Virus record (IMG/VR): IMGVR_UViG_3300020200_000094
Coordinates: 1 to 33,708 of that record
Strand: one strand, 5' to 3'
Length of the DNA stretch: 33,708 nucleotides
DNA from: a virus
Positions 10,606 to 17,417 of this stretch are shown piece by piece. The notes beneath the pieces are model-generated. The model searched no databases and was not told the DNA's origin. It worked only from the letters and a program-made list of their open reading frames with translations. The position numbers and the translations under genes are program-made. Position 1 is the stretch's first letter. Every line of letters begins with the position of its first letter.

Positions 10606-10614
10606 AAAATATCT
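10590..10614 (+). terminator. AT-rich inverted repeat between convergent genes
   Basis: AGATATTTT and AAAATATCT form a perfect 9-bp inverted repeat with a 7-base loop, spanning the stop codons of both convergent genes. On the plus strand it is followed by a T-rich stretch (TCTTCTTTTTG), consistent with a terminator for the acidic gene. The stem lacks G+C, so it is probably weak. Confidence 0.4.
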
Positions 10615-11431
10615 ATCTTCTTTTTGTCCTTCGAATTGTCCTTCGAACTTTTCTTTTACCAGCTCTTTTTATAGATTGCTTTCTGGCTCTATTTGCGCTT
10701 TTGGCTCTTACGGCAGACCGGGGTTTAGTAACCCGTCTTCCGCGAATACCCGTAGAGCCCGAAACCCCCCGGCGTCCATATGTGCCTCTTTTGCTGATAT
10801 TGAGCATGTCAATATCCTGTCTTCCGCCAGTAAGCTGTTTTCGTATCTTTGTTCTTTTTGTTCCCCTGTCGCTAAGAATACCGCCCTTTTTGTTTTGTCT
10901 AGCCATTCTTCTATCAAACCTTTTCATTACGGCTTGCAAACCCCTTGGATTGGTTCTTCCTAGCAGCGTTTGCCCACCAACCGTTCGCGTCTGCCGAGCC
11001 AGCGCGCTTCTTCCAAGGCCATCCCTTTTAGAAAGGACGGTTCTACCTTTTATTTTTTTATCACCAGCGGCTTTGCTTCTACGTTCAAATTCGTTCATGT
11101 GGGAGCGTCTCATTATTGCACCAGTTCTTTTATTCCTGGCGAACTTTGCGCTTTTATAAGTTCCCCTTCTTCCGGGTATGCGTGCACCAGCACCCCGTGC
11201 ATCAATGCCATATCTGGCCATTTGCCTAAGGTCCTTGTATCTTCCTTTTTGTATGTCGGCATCACTCAAACCAAAAAGCTGTTTTGCCATTTTTGTTGCG
11301 CGCCTATAACGTCTTCGAACATTTCTGTCTACTTTGCCGCCCCTTTTCGACATGTCTTTAAATTGCAAAATATCATTTAACATTTGCGCGGCGTCGTCGG
11401 TGATGTCTGGGCCGTAGCGTACTTGGGGCAT
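10613..11431 (-). CDS. Highly basic protein, possibly DNA-condensing or capsid-internal
   Basis: A 272-residue protein with a good ribosome site (GGAG before ATG 11431). I count about 83 Lys+Arg residues, roughly 30%. The first 30 residues are ordinary and mildly acidic (VRYGPDITDDAAQMLNDIL), then basic patches repeat (RRRYRRATK, GRRGTYKSAKFARNKR, GRRGVSGSTGIRGRR), ending in KRKVRRTIRRTKRR. There are many Gly/Ser/Thr between the basic clusters and essentially no Cys or Trp, like histone tails or protamine-like packaging proteins. It lies between the ParB/PAPS-reductase cassette and the connector gene. It may condense packaged DNA, or bind nucleic acid in the host. I do not recognise a family. 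Confidence 0.85.
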   Translation of the reverse strand: MPQVRYGPDITDDAAQMLNDILQFKDMSKRGGKVDRNVRRRYRRATKMAKQLFGLSDADIQKGRYKDLRQMARYGIDARGAGARIPGRRGTYKSAKFARNKRTGAIMRRSHMNEFERRSKAAGDKKIKGRTVLSKRDGLGRSALARQTRTVGGQTLLGRTNPRGLQAVMKRFDRRMARQNKKGGILSDRGTKRTKIRKQLTGGRQDIDMLNISKRGTYGRRGVSGSTGIRGRRVTKPRSAVRAKSANRARKQSIKRAGKRKVRRTIRRTKRR

Positions 11432-11498: not shown

Positions 11499-12053
11499 TT
11501 ACCTATCGGCATTTGGTGGGGATTCAAATTCCATAGCCTTCGAATTGGGTGAATTTGCTGGAGCCTCTATTGGAACCCATGCCTTTGAATAATTATGTTC
11601 CTTTATTTTTCGTTGCTTTATTAGGTCCCCGTCCACAAGCACTGCAAGCTCTTCGTTCCCCATCGATAAATACATTTTCAAATTAGAAATTGAGTAATTA
11701 CCTGAATCATATATTCTCTTGACCGATTTGGAGAGTTTTTCTATAACAATATTTGAATGACCCCTGTTAAGTCGTATGTGTAACATCATTGAATCAATCA
11801 AGTCAAGGTCATGCATCACGGCTGGAATTTTAAAATTGCAACGTTTGGCGATTTCGTCGATTGATTGAGCCAATAAAAAACGCTCCGAACCGTCAATAAT
11901 TTCGCCTGTCGATTTTCTGACATGTATTGGCTGTATGAAGCCAAATTCTATTAAAGACCCAGCAATTAAAAGCAACTCCGGTCTAAGCGTATACGTAACC
12001 TTCCAAGACGGAACAACTAATTTAGAAAATGGAATTTCCTCTATTTGAATCAT
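11499..12053 (-). CDS. ParB/IbrB-like domain protein, downstream copy
   Basis: A 184-residue protein with the ParB N-terminal domain pattern: a start such as IEEIPFSKLVVPSW, a loop FGFIQPIHVRKSTG, then EIIDGSERFLLAQSI, where GSERF replaces the usual G-x-R-R box. This variant resembles IbrB-type ParB proteins. Its ATG overlaps the stop of the PAPS-reductase-like gene by four bases, so the two are co-translated. ParB-fold proteins can bind or hydrolyse nucleotides or act on DNA; the actual activity here is unknown. The C-terminal third has a short helical segment and a Pro/Ser-rich tail. Confidence 0.8.
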   Translation of the reverse strand: MIQIEEIPFSKLVVPSWKVTYTLRPELLLIAGSLIEFGFIQPIHVRKSTGEIIDGSERFLLAQSIDEIAKRCNFKIPAVMHDLDLIDSMMLHIRLNRGHSNIVIEKLSKSVKRIYDSGNYSISNLKMYLSMGNEELAVLVDGDLIKQRKIKEHNYSKAWVPIEAPANSPNSKAMEFESPPNADR

Positions 12054-13180
12054 TTGGCTATTTCGCCTTCCTCTATCGTTCTTACTGTATACGCCCTAGT
12101 TTTTGGTCCAACCGGAGTCGGGGAATTGACATCAATTTCATTCAGTAAAAGATTTCGCATAAGCAAACTTAGCGGATAACCGCGCGGGTCGGAAATGTGT
12201 TTTTTTCTAAATTTTGAAACAAAAACTTTTGCTTCTCTTTTTCTTCTATCGCCAATCAAATACTTGTCTATTAATTCCGATGCCCCATCAAAACCCATTT
12301 TTGTATAATTTAAAATTAATTTTTCCATATCAAAATCAGGCCACAAATTTCTCTGAGCGTCAATGTAGGGAAAACACTCAAACAATCTGTCATAAAATTC
12401 TGGTTCAGTCGCTATTACGTCGCCAATCCTTCTTATTGCAGTTGCGTGAAGCGGAATTCCAACACGCGTATTACTTCCGGTCAGGGAGGCAAGGTCGTAG
12501 TATTTACAATATTCAGCATTGTGTTCTTCAATGATGTATTTAAAAACATCATTTGTGTTCCAGTCATATATTATTTTTGCGAATTTCAGCGGTATCCCGC
12601 GCTTCAATTGATATGGCGTCACTATATAGTTTTCGTGTAATTTTTGCACAAGCGACCTATATCTAACCATTGATTCGCTCGCCCTAACACCAGTAAGAAA
12701 CGCAACATTGCCCTTTTTCCCCTGCATCGTGTAGTAATCGGTTTGGTCTGGAAGTGAAACAGCGTGATTCAAACCAAAATCGTCTGCGTTGATTGCCCAT
12801 TTTGGCATCGGCCGAACCCATCTATCCTGAACCATTCTGTCGTAACTCCAAAGAAGAGTAGTAATTCTTCGCCCAAGAACCCAGATTTCCGCGGGATACG
12901 GAAGGCAATACCATTCCATGTCAACCCAGTCATAATTTCTGACTTTTTCTACATATTCAATGACTAGGGGGCTAACCATCTCTTCGTCTCGAAAAATAAC
13001 TTTTACAGGACCGAGTCCACGCTCTTCATGAATTTCTTTAGCAAGATATAAAACAGCAGTCGAATCTTTACCGCCAGAAAACTGAACGCAAACAGTATCG
13101 AAAATATCGTATACGTGTCTAATTCTTTTTCGTGCCGCCTCAACGCAGCTCATATCAAGAAATAAGCGCTGCCTTGTCAC
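12050..13180 (-). CDS. PAPS reductase-like (adenine nucleotide alpha-hydrolase) protein, IbrA/DndC-like
   Basis: A 376-residue protein starting at GTG 13180, which overlaps the previous stop by four bases. The PP-loop SGGKDST is at residues 35-41, and FLTGVRASES (161-170) is the second signature of PAPS reductase-like enzymes. YDWNTNDVFKYI matches the 'P-I-x-D-W-t-x-x-D-V/I-w' region of IbrA-like members. Enzymes of this superfamily adenylate or reduce sulfur-bearing or other substrates; DndC-type members serve DNA phosphorothioation, and IbrA is found next to the ParB-like IbrB in E. coli. Here it is flanked on both sides by ParB-domain genes in one overlapping operon, which suggests a DNA-modification or regulatory function. 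The substrate is unknown. Confidence 0.9.
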   Translation of the reverse strand: MTRQRLFLDMSCVEAARKRIRHVYDIFDTVCVQFSGGKDSTAVLYLAKEIHEERGLGPVKVIFRDEEMVSPLVIEYVEKVRNYDWVDMEWYCLPYPAEIWVLGRRITTLLWSYDRMVQDRWVRPMPKWAINADDFGLNHAVSLPDQTDYYTMQGKKGNVAFLTGVRASESMVRYRSLVQKLHENYIVTPYQLKRGIPLKFAKIIYDWNTNDVFKYIIEEHNAEYCKYYDLASLTGSNTRVGIPLHATAIRRIGDVIATEPEFYDRLFECFPYIDAQRNLWPDFDMEKLILNYTKMGFDGASELIDKYLIGDRRKREAKVFVSKFRKKHISDPRGYPLSLLMRNLLLNEIDVNSPTPVGPKTRAYTVRTIEEGEIAK

Positions 13181-14013
13181 GACGAATGTGTTTTGATGAA
13201 TGAAATTAATTTTTCTGCAATCGTTGCACCGGAATAGTTTGCATCAATTTTAAGTGATTTTATGAACTCATACCAAGATGCTTGTTGCTCTGTTGTTTCA
13301 AAAGTTATCTGAACGGTTATTGCTGCGTTCGGAGCAGATGATTTCATTGCGGTAGTCGAACCACGAATCGCCGCATCGGAATGGTCAAAACTCGAATTTA
13401 ATTTAATTTCATTTTGCCCATCTCTTGTTCTATTTATCGATACAGAGTTTGAATCGAAAATTGGTTCACCCGAACCATCATCCCCGGATTCATCTTCTTG
13501 CTCCGCGTCGTTATCTTGGCTTTCTGATTGTCTAATAATCACCGGAGGAACGTAGGAGCCAGAATGAATTGTTTCATTTTCGTATCTAACTGATGCTTGC
13601 TCTATTTCGGCAATTTCAAATTCATCCCACCCTAGGCTGTCAAGAAGTTCGGGATAATAATCTCCAACCTCAAGAATTAATTCATGCAAAATCTCGGGTT
13701 CGGTATAGCCGAGCTCCATTGTTCTATTGTCTGCAATGGCAAAAGCTATTGCTCTCTCGTTGTCGACGTCGTATTGTACTGTTGCAATTTTGTCCCATCC
13801 AAGCTCTATCGCGGCTTCAAGCTGATGATTCCCCGCGACAACAGTGAATGTCCCATCACCGTTTGGTCTTGCGACTATTGGTTTTATTTGTCCAAATTCT
13901 TCATATGACGCGATAATCGCTTTAATATTTCCTTTTCTTGGATTTTTATCAAGCCGCTTTAACAGGGATATTTCAATCGCTAGCGGCCTAAGCGATTCGT
14001 GAATATTATTCAT
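13177..14013 (-). CDS. ParB-domain protein, upstream copy with extra C-terminal region
   Basis: A 278-residue protein. Residues 10-115 form a recognisable ParB/Spo0J domain: ISLLKRLDKNPRKG, FGQIKPIVARP, then VVAGNHQLEAAIELGW (the G-x-x-R/Q box) and AIADNRTMELG. Residues 150-215 are acidic and Ser-rich, probably a linker, and the last 60 residues form a separate small domain (ITVQITFETTEQQASW..., ending IKTHSS). It starts two bases after the preceding stop and overlaps the PAPS-reductase-like gene by four bases. Many phages carry such a protein near DNA methylases or modification genes. Nuclease, CTPase or modification-guide roles are all possible. Confidence 0.85.
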   Translation of the reverse strand: MNNIHESLRPLAIEISLLKRLDKNPRKGNIKAIIASYEEFGQIKPIVARPNGDGTFTVVAGNHQLEAAIELGWDKIATVQYDVDNERAIAFAIADNRTMELGYTEPEILHELILEVGDYYPELLDSLGWDEFEIAEIEQASVRYENETIHSGSYVPPVIIRQSESQDNDAEQEDESGDDGSGEPIFDSNSVSINRTRDGQNEIKLNSSFDHSDAAIRGSTTAMKSSAPNAAITVQITFETTEQQASWYEFIKSLKIDANYSGATIAEKLISFIKTHSS

Positions 14014-14015
14014 TT

Positions 14016-14351
14016 TTACACCTGTGTTCTTACGTTGGCGTTTAATGTCCTAAGTGCGTCTATTGATGTTCGAAGCGAAAGAAGAACTTCGCGTTTTGAT
14101 TTAACCAAAGCTTCTGCGCACTTAAACTCAAAGTTCTGCTGGTCCATTTTGTAATCAGCCCAAGCTTCTCGTTCCTTTATTGAGCCCTTCGCCGATAGGT
14201 ATTCTTTTGCCCAGTTGCTTTTATAAAGAGATTCCTTTTTGGAACAATCCATAGCTACGGTTTCGAATTGTTCTGTTTCGTGTTCTAATTTGTCCATAAG
14301 CCTAAGAAGCTCTTGCTCTACTTCGACTTGGCTTATTGGCGTGCTTCTCAT
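14016..14351 (-). CDS. Small coiled-coil protein of unknown function
   Basis: A 111-residue protein, almost entirely helical and charged (VEVEQELLRLMDKLEHETEQ, then KSKREVLLSLRTSIDALR), probably a coiled coil. Its ATG overlaps the RuvC-like stop by four bases (ATGA), and the next gene follows after two bases, so it belongs to the same operon. Small helical proteins of this kind often accompany phage recombination genes, but I recognise no specific family. Confidence 0.8.
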   Translation of the reverse strand: MRSTPISQVEVEQELLRLMDKLEHETEQFETVAMDCSKKESLYKSNWAKEYLSAKGSIKEREAWADYKMDQQNFEFKCAEALVKSKREVLLSLRTSIDALRTLNANVRTQV

Positions 14352-14878
14352 TTTTTGTCCTTTTCAATTAATTCCAACAGTGACCAATCTACTTTAGCTA
14401 AAACTTCCAGACTGGTTTTTGGCCAATCAAATCTTTGTTTACCGATTTTAGTAAGAGCCATTTCTTCCAGAATCCACGCGTCGCATTTATCGTCCGCCCC
14501 CGGATTTTTCCAAATCAAACCTGTTTTTGCGGAAACAAAAGAAATTACTTCATTTTTCGAAGCATTGCCCCTCCCTGTTGCAAATTTTGCCCGACATGTA
14601 GGCGGTATCTCTATGTAGGGGGTATCCATTCTGTGAAGCATCACCCTTACGACCCCGCCAAGCTCCCCTATTGAATGGGCTTGAGAGTTTCGCGACGAAA
14701 AAGCATAGCCCTCAATCAAGACTGCGTCTATTTTAAATTCAACAATTAAATTTCCTATTGACTCGGATATTTCAATAAGTCGTTTTACGCCAGTCGAGCC
14801 AACAGAAATAACATCACAGTCGTTGTTACTGGAATATCCGGTTGACGTCAAAGATAAATCAAGGCCCAAGAATCTCAC
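14348..14878 (-). CDS. RuvC-like Holliday junction resolvase
   Basis: A 176-residue nuclease with the RNase H-like RuvC pattern: FLGLDLSLTSTGY at the N-terminus (catalytic Asp7), VLIEGYAF (Glu56), GRGNASKNEV (about 102-111), and the C-terminal acidic pair GADDKCDAW (Asp129/130 and Asp133). All four acidic positions appear intact. It would cut branched recombination or replication intermediates before packaging, fitting its neighbours (annealing protein and PD-(D/E)XK nuclease). The start is GTG 14878; no strong ribosome site precedes it. Length is normal for phage and bacterial RuvC (about 160-180). Confidence 0.9.
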   Translation of the reverse strand: MRFLGLDLSLTSTGYSSNNDCDVISVGSTGVKRLIEISESIGNLIVEFKIDAVLIEGYAFSSRNSQAHSIGELGGVVRVMLHRMDTPYIEIPPTCRAKFATGRGNASKNEVISFVSAKTGLIWKNPGADDKCDAWILEEMALTKIGKQRFDWPKTSLEVLAKVDWSLLELIEKDKK

Positions 14879-15930: not shown

Positions 15931-16711
15931 TATTTCCCCAGGCTGGACAAATTTTCTTGAACGAGCACCACCCGCATAAAACTGATTTTTTGTGTGGAAA
16001 ATTTCCCGACTTGCAACTTTCATCTATATTCCTTTTTGTTTCTTGTATTGTTTCGATGGTGGCATTGAGGTCTTCTTGCGTGACCCGACGTTTAAATCTA
16101 ACTGGGTCCCTGAGGTATAACAACTCAACATCAATCTCATCAAATTCAATGCCAAGGTGCGACAAAAGCTGGGAATAGGCAATAAGTTGAAAGAATTTCT
16201 CTGGTAAATCGATTTCTCTGGGTGTTTTTCCGGTTTTATAGTCACTAATTGTGACGTTTTTATCACCAATCAAAAGTCTATCAATATAGCCACGCATTTT
16301 AACACCACCAATTTCGCCGGTCACAAAACACTCCATTTTCGATGGGGTAAAAGATGTGGGATTTTCAAACTCCCACAGATGCTCAATGCACCACCAGGCC
16401 GCCCACCTAAACCTATTCAATTCTTTTTCCCCGCGGACAACACTGCCCGTTTTTTCCTCCCACCGAGAATCCCACAACTCCCTGGCGAGTAATTTTGCTT
16501 GCTCCCGTGTGCGTAAATTTGGTGAGAGTTTGTACAGTTTTTCTAAAACATCATGGACGTAATTACCAAGTATTGCCTCCTGTCCGCTTGGGTCTGGAAG
16601 GCCATCAATTTTAGAATATTTAAATTTAAGCGGGCACTGACGAAATGTTCCTATCGATGAGGGCGATAAAAACTCCGGAGCAACAAGTTCCCTATTCTTC
16701 GGATGGCTCAT
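15911..16711 (-). CDS. Cas4/RecB-like PD-(D/E)XK nuclease with four-cysteine cluster
   Basis: A 266-residue nuclease starting at ATG 16711 (GGTGGGG upstream, inside the preceding gene's end). Motifs in order: SPSSIGTFRQCPLKFKY (SxxxxxxxCPxxf, first Cys at 26), ILGNYVHDVLE (active-site His), GYIDRLL and TISDYKTGK (the D...DxK core), FQLIAYSQLL (QxxxY motif), and a C-terminal CGWCSFKKICPAW (Cys 246, 249, 255). The four cysteines match the iron-sulfur cluster of Cas4 and AddB-type nucleases. It probably resects DNA ends to give the 3' single strands used by the adjacent annealing protein. No cas gene lies nearby. Confidence 0.9.
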   Translation of the reverse strand: MSHPKNRELVAPEFLSPSSIGTFRQCPLKFKYSKIDGLPDPSGQEAILGNYVHDVLEKLYKLSPNLRTREQAKLLARELWDSRWEEKTGSVVRGEKELNRFRWAAWWCIEHLWEFENPTSFTPSKMECFVTGEIGGVKMRGYIDRLLIGDKNVTISDYKTGKTPREIDLPEKFFQLIAYSQLLSHLGIEFDEIDVELLYLRDPVRFKRRVTQEDLNATIETIQETKRNIDESCKSGNFPHKKSVLCGWCSFKKICPAWGNNERQIN

Positions 16712-17417
16712 TAATATACACCCCACCAAACTTTATTCGCAATACTTCCGTAATCAAAGATTGTAGGTCTTCAATCGTTGCGGTTTCCTTTTTGGGTTTT
16801 GGTTTCCCGCCAGAAGTGGTTTCCCAAAATTGATTTAGTTCTACTTTTTGTTCTTTGGTCAAAGATTTTGTTACTTCAACAAAATACTCCCACTTTTCGT
16901 CGACTTCAGCTTTGGGTTGTTGTTTTTTTTCTACATTGAGTTCCTCGTCTTGCGTGAGCGCCATTGCTTCTTCTGCGTCGATTGCGTCGGCAGAACGAGA
17001 CAAATACAGACCGACACCCAATTGTTGGGCTGCCTTTTTTAGGGCGTCAGACACTGCCATCTTAAAAGAATTACCGAGGTCGACCGGCTTTCCCGTTGAT
17101 TTAATTCTTTTAATACTTGTTCCACCAACACCATGCTTAACGACATGCTTGCCCGCTATGTCGGCGGAAAGATTTATGTGCGCAATAATTTCATCTGGTT
17201 CATGCGTGTCACGTTCAAGACGAATAACCTCAAACGACCATGAATCAATCCCAAGAACCTTATTCAAACGATTAATTACTTCGCTTACGGGAATAAAACG
17301 AAGATTGACACCAGAAACGGTCATCATTTTTTCCATTTCTTCCGGAAATTGTGCGTAAAGTGCGCGGGTGATTCCGTTAAGGTCTTTATTAATTTGTGTT
17401 TCCAATAGTTCAGTCAT
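16692..17417 (-). CDS. Rad52/Sak-like single-strand annealing protein
   Basis: A 241-residue protein. The N-terminal 150 residues fit the Rad52/Rad22 annealing fold: LRFIPVSEVINRLNKVLG, an IAHINLSADIAGKHVVKHG strand pair, and the diagnostic NSFKMAVSDALKKAAQQLGV followed by GLYL. The C-terminal third is charged and probably disordered, ending in a short helix. It should bind and anneal single-stranded DNA in phage recombination, and it overlaps the nuclease gene by 20 bases, forming a typical exonuclease/annealase pair. The start ATG 17417 has only a distant AAAGG. Confidence 0.9.
   Translation of the reverse strand: MTELLETQINKDLNGITRALYAQFPEEMEKMMTVSGVNLRFIPVSEVINRLNKVLGIDSWSFEVIRLERDTHEPDEIIAHINLSADIAGKHVVKHGVGGTSIKRIKSTGKPVDLGNSFKMAVSDALKKAAQQLGVGLYLSRSADAIDAEEAMALTQDEELNVEKKQQPKAEVDEKWEYFVEVTKSLTKEQKVELNQFWETTSGGKPKPKKETATIEDLQSLITEVLRIKFGGVYINEPSEE

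Follow-up and report, generated by a model that had tools for sequence, protein, structure and literature searches.

A ParB/PP-loop ATP-pyrophosphatase/ParB gene triad shared by a large freshwater phage and unrelated phages

IbrA-IbrB is a known pair, present in enterobacteria and in many prophages, in which an enzyme containing PAPS_reduct and DUF3440 domains is accompanied by a ParB partner. DndC, a component of Dnd phosphorothioation, belongs to the same PAPS-reductase/PP-loop superfamily, and the ParB-superfamily protein DndB can be found near it. FAD synthase and the ATP sulfurylase CysD resemble the enzyme described here in their PP-loop, a DW...D motif and their fold, with a YCxLYD motif in FAD synthase, but their known acceptors are small molecules and not DNA. 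Neither FAD synthase nor CysD is known to have a ParB partner. With respect to the ParB fold itself, a 2025 survey reported that diverse ParB-fold proteins bind ATP, CTP or GTP, and that changing the P-motif arginine abolishes binding (PMC12704722); a term search of the text of that survey for IbrB or PAPS partners returned no mention. Here we describe a triad from a large freshwater phage in which a PP-loop enzyme lies between two ParB-fold proteins, ParB_N and ParB_C.

The stretch of DNA analyzed (the window) is the entire IMG/VR record IMGVR_UViG_3300020200_000094, 33,708 bases in length. The window is evidently part of a larger myovirus, as its products include tail sheath, tail tube, neck, terminase, portal and head protease proteins; related contigs reach up to 159 kb. 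The triad belongs to a minus-strand gene series that runs from RuvC through a phrog_1389 protein, ParB_N and the PP-loop enzyme to ParB_C (Table 1). A preliminary description of this DNA had placed ParB, PP-loop and ParB open reading frames at 11499-14013, joined by 4-base overlaps, and the coordinates, the strand and both overlaps were borne out: ParB_N and the enzyme share GTGA (13177-13180), and the enzyme and ParB_C share ATGA (12050-12053). The RuvC/phrog_1389 junction (14348-14351) is a 4-base overlap too, and the only other junction of the run, between phrog_1389 and ParB_N, is a 2-base gap. The phrog_1389 protein is 69-100% identical in the relatives that carry one; in one relative a 2OG-Fe(II) oxygenase (PF13759, L118:3467-4087) is inserted between phrog_1389 and ParB_N. 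Adjoining ParB_C downstream on the minus strand (10613-11431) is a 272 aa, extremely basic protein (30.5% K+R, pI about 12) that returned no match in Pfam and PHROG scans. Its place is kept in most relatives, its sequence is weakly conserved, and it could be a DNA-condensing or core protein. Further upstream, the minus-strand gene at 16692-17417 encodes a Rad52-like single-strand annealing protein, whose homologues in two relatives (G015 and G018) match across an in-frame TGA.

Table 1. Genes of the minus-strand run and conserved motifs of the triad proteins.
Feature	Coordinates	Strand	Evidence
RuvC-like Holliday junction resolvase, heads the overlapped run	14348..14878	-	Pfam RuvC E 7e-7; phrog_159 E 3e-33
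phrog_1389 protein, 111 aa	14016..14351	-	phrog_1389 E 5e-12
ParB_N, 278 aa, ParB-fold (phrog_723 type)	13177..14013	-	Pfam PF02195 E 1.7e-9; phrog_723 E 6e-35; alignment A4, 25 homologues
ParB_N G-N-H (residues 61-63), equivalent to ParB nucleotide-binding C motif	13825..13833	-	A4; phmmer alignment to Spo0J and Noc
ParB_N A-D-N-R (residues 94-97), position of ParB P motif	13723..13734	-	A4; role inferred from PMC12704722
PP-loop ATP-pyrophosphatase, PAPS-reductase fold, 376 aa, GTG start	12050..13180	-	Pfam PF01507 (PAPS_reduct) E 4.5e-11; phrog_2302 E 3.6e-76; AlphaFold2; Foldseek
SGGKDS PP-loop motif (residues 35-40)	13061..13078	-	Invariant, 73 homologues
GVRASES (residues 164-170), resembles CysH G-x-R-x-x-Q-S	12671..12691	-	R166, E169, S170 and nearby R173 invariant; CysH match by eye
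DWNTND (residues 206-211), then YCxxY (224-228)	12548..12565	-	D206, W207, D211, Y228 invariant; 8rom alignment
ParB_C, 184 aa, IbrB-type ParB-fold	11499..12053	-	phrog_2159 E 5.8e-20; AlphaFold2 pLDDT 85; Foldseek 7bnr E 1.2e-6
ParB_C D-G-x-x-R (residues 54-58), nucleotide-pocket motif	11880..11894	-	G55 and R58 invariant, D54 nearly; 53 homologues
ParB_C N96-R97, core of xNR(A/G)(R/K)G family motif	11763..11768	-	Both invariant, 53 homologues

The SGGKDST (residues 35-41) and GVRASES motifs of the middle protein, which the preliminary description had called intact, are complete, and their core residues are invariant in 73 diverse homologues (alignment A2). Across the same alignment R19, F27, V32, D65, E67 and R239 are likewise invariant, in addition to the motif residues listed in Table 1. 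The region spanning DWNTND and YCxxY is common to FAD synthase, where it reads DWTYRD...YCILYD. A profile of the triad-type enzymes matched human FAD synthase best (E 3e-4), followed by CysD, both of which transfer adenylyl groups, with PAPS reductase weaker; a phmmer search of the PDB with the single sequence as query returned no match. The AlphaFold2 model (pLDDT 86, pTM 0.83) gave CysH as its top Foldseek match, and FAD synthase, CysD, TilS and thiolases were also returned. Superposition of the PAPS domain of FAD synthase (8rom) on the model yielded a TM-score of 0.70 of the target and an rmsd of 3.2, at only about 15% sequence identity to FAD synthase and CysD. Given the invariant S35-S40 loop, a PF01507 match above its cut-off and these structural matches, the safest statement is that the protein is an ATP-pyrophosphatase of the PAPS-reductase fold, one that likely adenylates an acceptor. 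The label "PAPS-reductase-like" is valid at the level of the fold only.

The kinship with IbrB-IbrA suggested in the preliminary description holds for the unit. Both systems combine a PP-loop enzyme with a same-strand ParB of the phrog_2159 type, and both retain the invariant PP-loop residues and the NR and DGxxR motifs of the ParB. However, DUF3440, present in four IbrA-type relatives, is absent from the window enzyme and from four other triad-type enzymes, which have a C-terminal region of their own, and a second, different ParB is encoded upstream. In a tree of 59 enzymes the triad-type sequences form one clade (SH-aLRT 100) apart from the IbrA type. The absence of DUF3440 and the separate clade indicate that the window enzyme is not IbrA. 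Within the triad-type clade, the loci that have no ParB next to the enzyme group together as a derived subclade. Two loci of this unlinked-ParB subclade encode proteins of 350-420 aa with an NGQHRL motif upstream of the PP-loop gene (L133:3589-4647, which is phrog_5931, and L147:2961-4223); a resemblance to DndB was considered for these proteins and set aside, as it was seen by eye only and a Pfam scan gave no match.

ParB_C is an IbrB-type partner. The match to the Pfam ParB_N domain is weak (E 0.004, under the curated cut-off) and the match to phrog_2159 is clear; the protein has the ParB fold and the DGxxR and NR motifs, and adjoins the PP-loop enzyme. Foldseek placed the model closest to CTP-bound ParB, Noc and KorB, followed by sulfiredoxin. 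The nucleotide-pocket residues are kept, while the motifs differ from those of ParB/Noc CTPases, with DGxxR and NR(G/A)(R/K)G in place of GERR and ENLQR. ParB_N was aligned with 25 homologues, among which G61 and N96 are invariant and N62, A94 and D95 nearly so. Its C-terminal domain is also conserved, with the family consensus VVQYTIVFDnxxQQxxWYxFxRWLR. The "duplicated ParB" of the preliminary description is inaccurate: the two proteins come from separate families, phrog_723 and phrog_2159, whose ranges differ. The enzyme profile retrieved 80 loci from bacteria and archaea; in 77 of them a ParB_C-type protein is encoded nearby on the same strand, compared with only 4 that contain a ParB_N-type match. 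This difference identifies ParB_C as a nearly obligate partner and ParB_N as an addition largely limited to phage triads.

The order ParB_N, PP-loop enzyme, ParB_C recurs outside the lineage of the window. The preliminary description had called for a search of other phages, and the same arrangement is found in Mycobacterium B3 phage Daisy, the M. abscessus prophage prophi79-1, Arthrobacter phages Kovu and Waltz, Bacillus phage 031MP004 and Rhizobium phage L338C, and also in a Candidatus Aminicenantes contig (L160). The PP-loop enzymes of the Mycobacterium, Arthrobacter, Bacillus and Rhizobium phages are 30-41% identical to that of the window. The closest known arrangements are genes 1-5 of the Mycobacterium B3 phages (Daisy, Phlyer and others) and genes 5-7 of Kovu, which contain the same components in the same order with PP-loop enzymes 37-41% identical; These are actinobacterial phages that share no nucleotide similarity with the window, and not related freshwater myoviruses. 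Small genes are inserted in some of the triads; in Daisy, two of them separate ParB_N from the enzyme. For 24 kb of the window, the phage collection gave no nucleotide match, indicating that the triad order does not result from recent copying. In 80 viral relatives the order RuvC, phrog_1389, ParB_N, PP-loop enzyme, ParB_C is kept in the loci that are long enough; the presence of the triad order in nearly all of these and in unrelated phages argues that the arrangement is not due to chance. Within the neighborhood, the PP-loop enzyme usually shows the highest conservation, being 78-84% identical in most relatives as compared with 44-61% for the ParBs.

The "strict coupling" of the preliminary description is an overstatement. 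Gene order is kept, and spacing differs among relatives: ParB_N and the enzyme overlap by four bases in 30 of the 114 viral loci that have both, with gaps of up to about 2 kb in the others. All 24 viral records of at least 50 kb contain exactly one strong match to each triad gene (E <= 1e-151 for the PP-loop enzyme, <= 5e-89 for ParB_N and <= 7e-67 for ParB_C). The three genes lie together in 21 of these records; ParB_N is distant in G025, and all three are far apart in G002 and G003. Two of the exceptions to ParB adjacency, in large records, hold both ParBs elsewhere, and several others are shorter fragments. As a control, the HNH endonuclease and the Rad52-like annealing protein of the same region were found to be kept in all seven genomes tested, which weakens co-retention within the lineage as proof of coupling. 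The triad is therefore simply core in the lineage of the window, and it is the comparison across lineages that carries the case for specific coupling.

In the window the triad sits in a recombination/terminase region. The triads of Daisy, Kovu, Waltz and prophi79-1 are likewise near terminase genes, as are related enzyme-ParB sets in Taranis and FCL-2; no terminase genes were found in the 9 kb examined around the triad of Rhizobium phage L338C. In three phages with different hosts, similar class-I methyltransferases adjoin the triad or lie within it (L084:5977-6582, L085:5088-5639 and L093:5630-6208), that of the Bacillus triad phage being phrog_11826, and this small methyltransferase is a candidate fourth component. 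The dyad (IbrA-type) relatives adjoin cupin or helicase-like genes, as in a Pseudoalteromonas phage where an ectoine-synthase-like cupin (L090:5311-5703) is next to the IbrA-type enzyme. In Mycobacterium phage Nebkiss, the ParB gene that corresponds (L087:5317-6216) has an N-terminal extension resembling this cupin. At the end of the Kovu genome, genes 96-98 (PQ184785, L241:46982-49446) encode a gamma-glutamyl cyclotransferase, an amidoligase and a glutamine amidotransferase, and are circularly adjacent to another ParB gene.

We favor a model, which we judge to have somewhat less than an even chance of being correct, in which the triad acts as one unit, a DNA-directed adenylation complex whose NTP-dependent ParBs bring the enzyme to phage DNA before packaging for modification. 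The middle protein would bind ATP at the SGGKDS loop and form an AMP-activated intermediate with an acceptor held by the conserved arginines. Both ParB-fold proteins would be NTP-dependent clamps or loaders, with ParB_C as the core partner; ParB_N, an addition specific to phages, would serve target choice or loading. The acceptor would most likely be phage DNA, at a base or the backbone, acted on late, around recombination and packaging, and the altered DNA, once packaged, may resist host nucleases. The DNA-directed complex suggested in the preliminary description is plausible. Consistent with this model are the gene order shared with unrelated phages despite the 24 kb without a nucleotide match, the well-supported triad-type clade, the same-strand ParB_C of nearly all bacterial and archaeal loci, and the presence of all three genes in every large record, including the three in which they are separated. 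The invariance of the PP-loop and substrate-side residues, the profile and fold matches to FAD synthase and CysD, the likeness of ParB_C to CTP-bound ParB and sulfiredoxin, the recurrent terminase and recombination neighbors and the methyltransferase of three phages point in the same direction. On the other side, the retention of HNH and Rad52-like genes makes lineage co-retention non-specific, the 9 kb examined around the Rhizobium triad contain no terminase genes, and a search of the literature returned no experimental reports of modified virion DNA in any triad phage.

A further point against the model is that a small-molecule acceptor would account just as well for the likeness to FAD synthase and CysD. 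The enzyme could adenylate a metabolite, phosphorylated or of a similar kind, in the way that FAD synthase uses FMN and CysD uses sulfate, and so produce a signal, a cofactor or an anti-defense nucleotide, with the ParBs as NTP-binding accessory subunits; the cupin (ectoine-synthase-like), GNAT or methyltransferase genes that adjoin some relatives are in keeping with this. We consider it quite unlikely, as two ParB-fold partners in a recombination/terminase setting suggest DNA and no dedicated metabolic pathway was seen near the class-1 triads. The only function reported for a relative, IbrAB, is transcriptional co-activation, which also counts against the favored model: annotations of IbrA/IbrB relatives name them co-activators of prophage genes. 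NTP binding is, moreover, a general property of the ParB fold (PMC12704722). A regulatory complex, as proposed for E. coli IbrAB, in which the enzyme and the ParBs sense a nucleotide and switch phage or host transcription, the enzyme serving as a sensor and not modifying DNA, nevertheless appears unlikely. Full conservation of PP-loop and substrate residues over very wide distances argues for catalysis, the triad type without DUF3440 is separate from IbrA, and the neighbors of the triad are recombination and terminase genes and not regulators.

A reduced DndC-like system that replaces a backbone oxygen with sulfur, the sulfur being supplied by a host cysteine desulfurase, would draw on the shared superfamily (DndC profile matches of E 3.6e-7 in NCBIfam and 1.9e-8 in PADLOC), on C225, invariant in the nine triad-type sequences of alignment A1, and on the ability of host IscS to replace DndA (PMC11662687). 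The score against TIGR03183 is, however, 29.4 bits, far under the cut-off of 290.4. The cysteine dyad and the essential Fe-S cysteine important in DndC (PMC10853773, PMC11662687) have no invariant counterpart, no cysteine being invariant in the 73-homologue alignment, and the YCxxYD motif that contains C225 is shared with FAD synthase, an enzyme without sulfur-transfer activity, so that C225 is not a mark of sulfur chemistry. DndA, DndD, DndE and desulfurase genes are absent from the annotations of Kovu and Daisy 0-58 kb; the window covers only part of a genome, and a desulfurase of the host could supply this function. From the score, the cysteines and the partner annotation in these two phages, phosphorothioation is not indicated by the sequence and is improbable, and the DndC relationship drawn in the preliminary description does not extend beyond the superfamily. 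Auxiliary sulfur assimilation by a phage PAPS reductase would agree with automatic annotation and with CysH as the top Foldseek match. We regard this as highly improbable, because the loop is intact compared with the degenerate SSFGIQA of CysH (6vpu), no invariant cysteine could act as the catalytic one of CysH and the partners are ParBs. The ParB-like annotation might recall the partition or maintenance genes of a phage-plasmid, an identity that is scarcely credible here: no ParA family was found among the 30 window proteins scanned, ParB_N scores 42.7 bits against TIGR00180, under the cut-off of 58.45, and the ParBs are tied to the enzyme.

The component families are public (phrog_2302, phrog_2159 and phrog_723), and the two-ParB triad as a unit, with its separate clade and wide range, appears to be undescribed in the open literature searched, where we found no paper on its function or describing it as a system. 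Returning to the DNA-directed adenylation complex, it is conceivable, though doubtful, that the triad represents phage DNA modification of a new class: the two ParBs would form an NTP-gated loader that brings the adenylating PP-loop enzyme to DNA, where it would leave an undescribed base or backbone mark. The enzyme is found in hundreds of viral contigs, where it is usually annotated as a PAPS reductase and taken for an auxiliary sulfur gene; the evidence places it in a ParB-linked, three-protein module that every related large phage record examined contains in single copy. A triad of this kind is present in laboratory phages of M. smegmatis (Daisy, Phlyer and other B3 phages), which makes its chemistry directly testable. 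If the modification hypothesis is true, the triad would provide a new type of DNA mark or anti-defense chemistry, and a negative outcome would still correct a widespread annotation.
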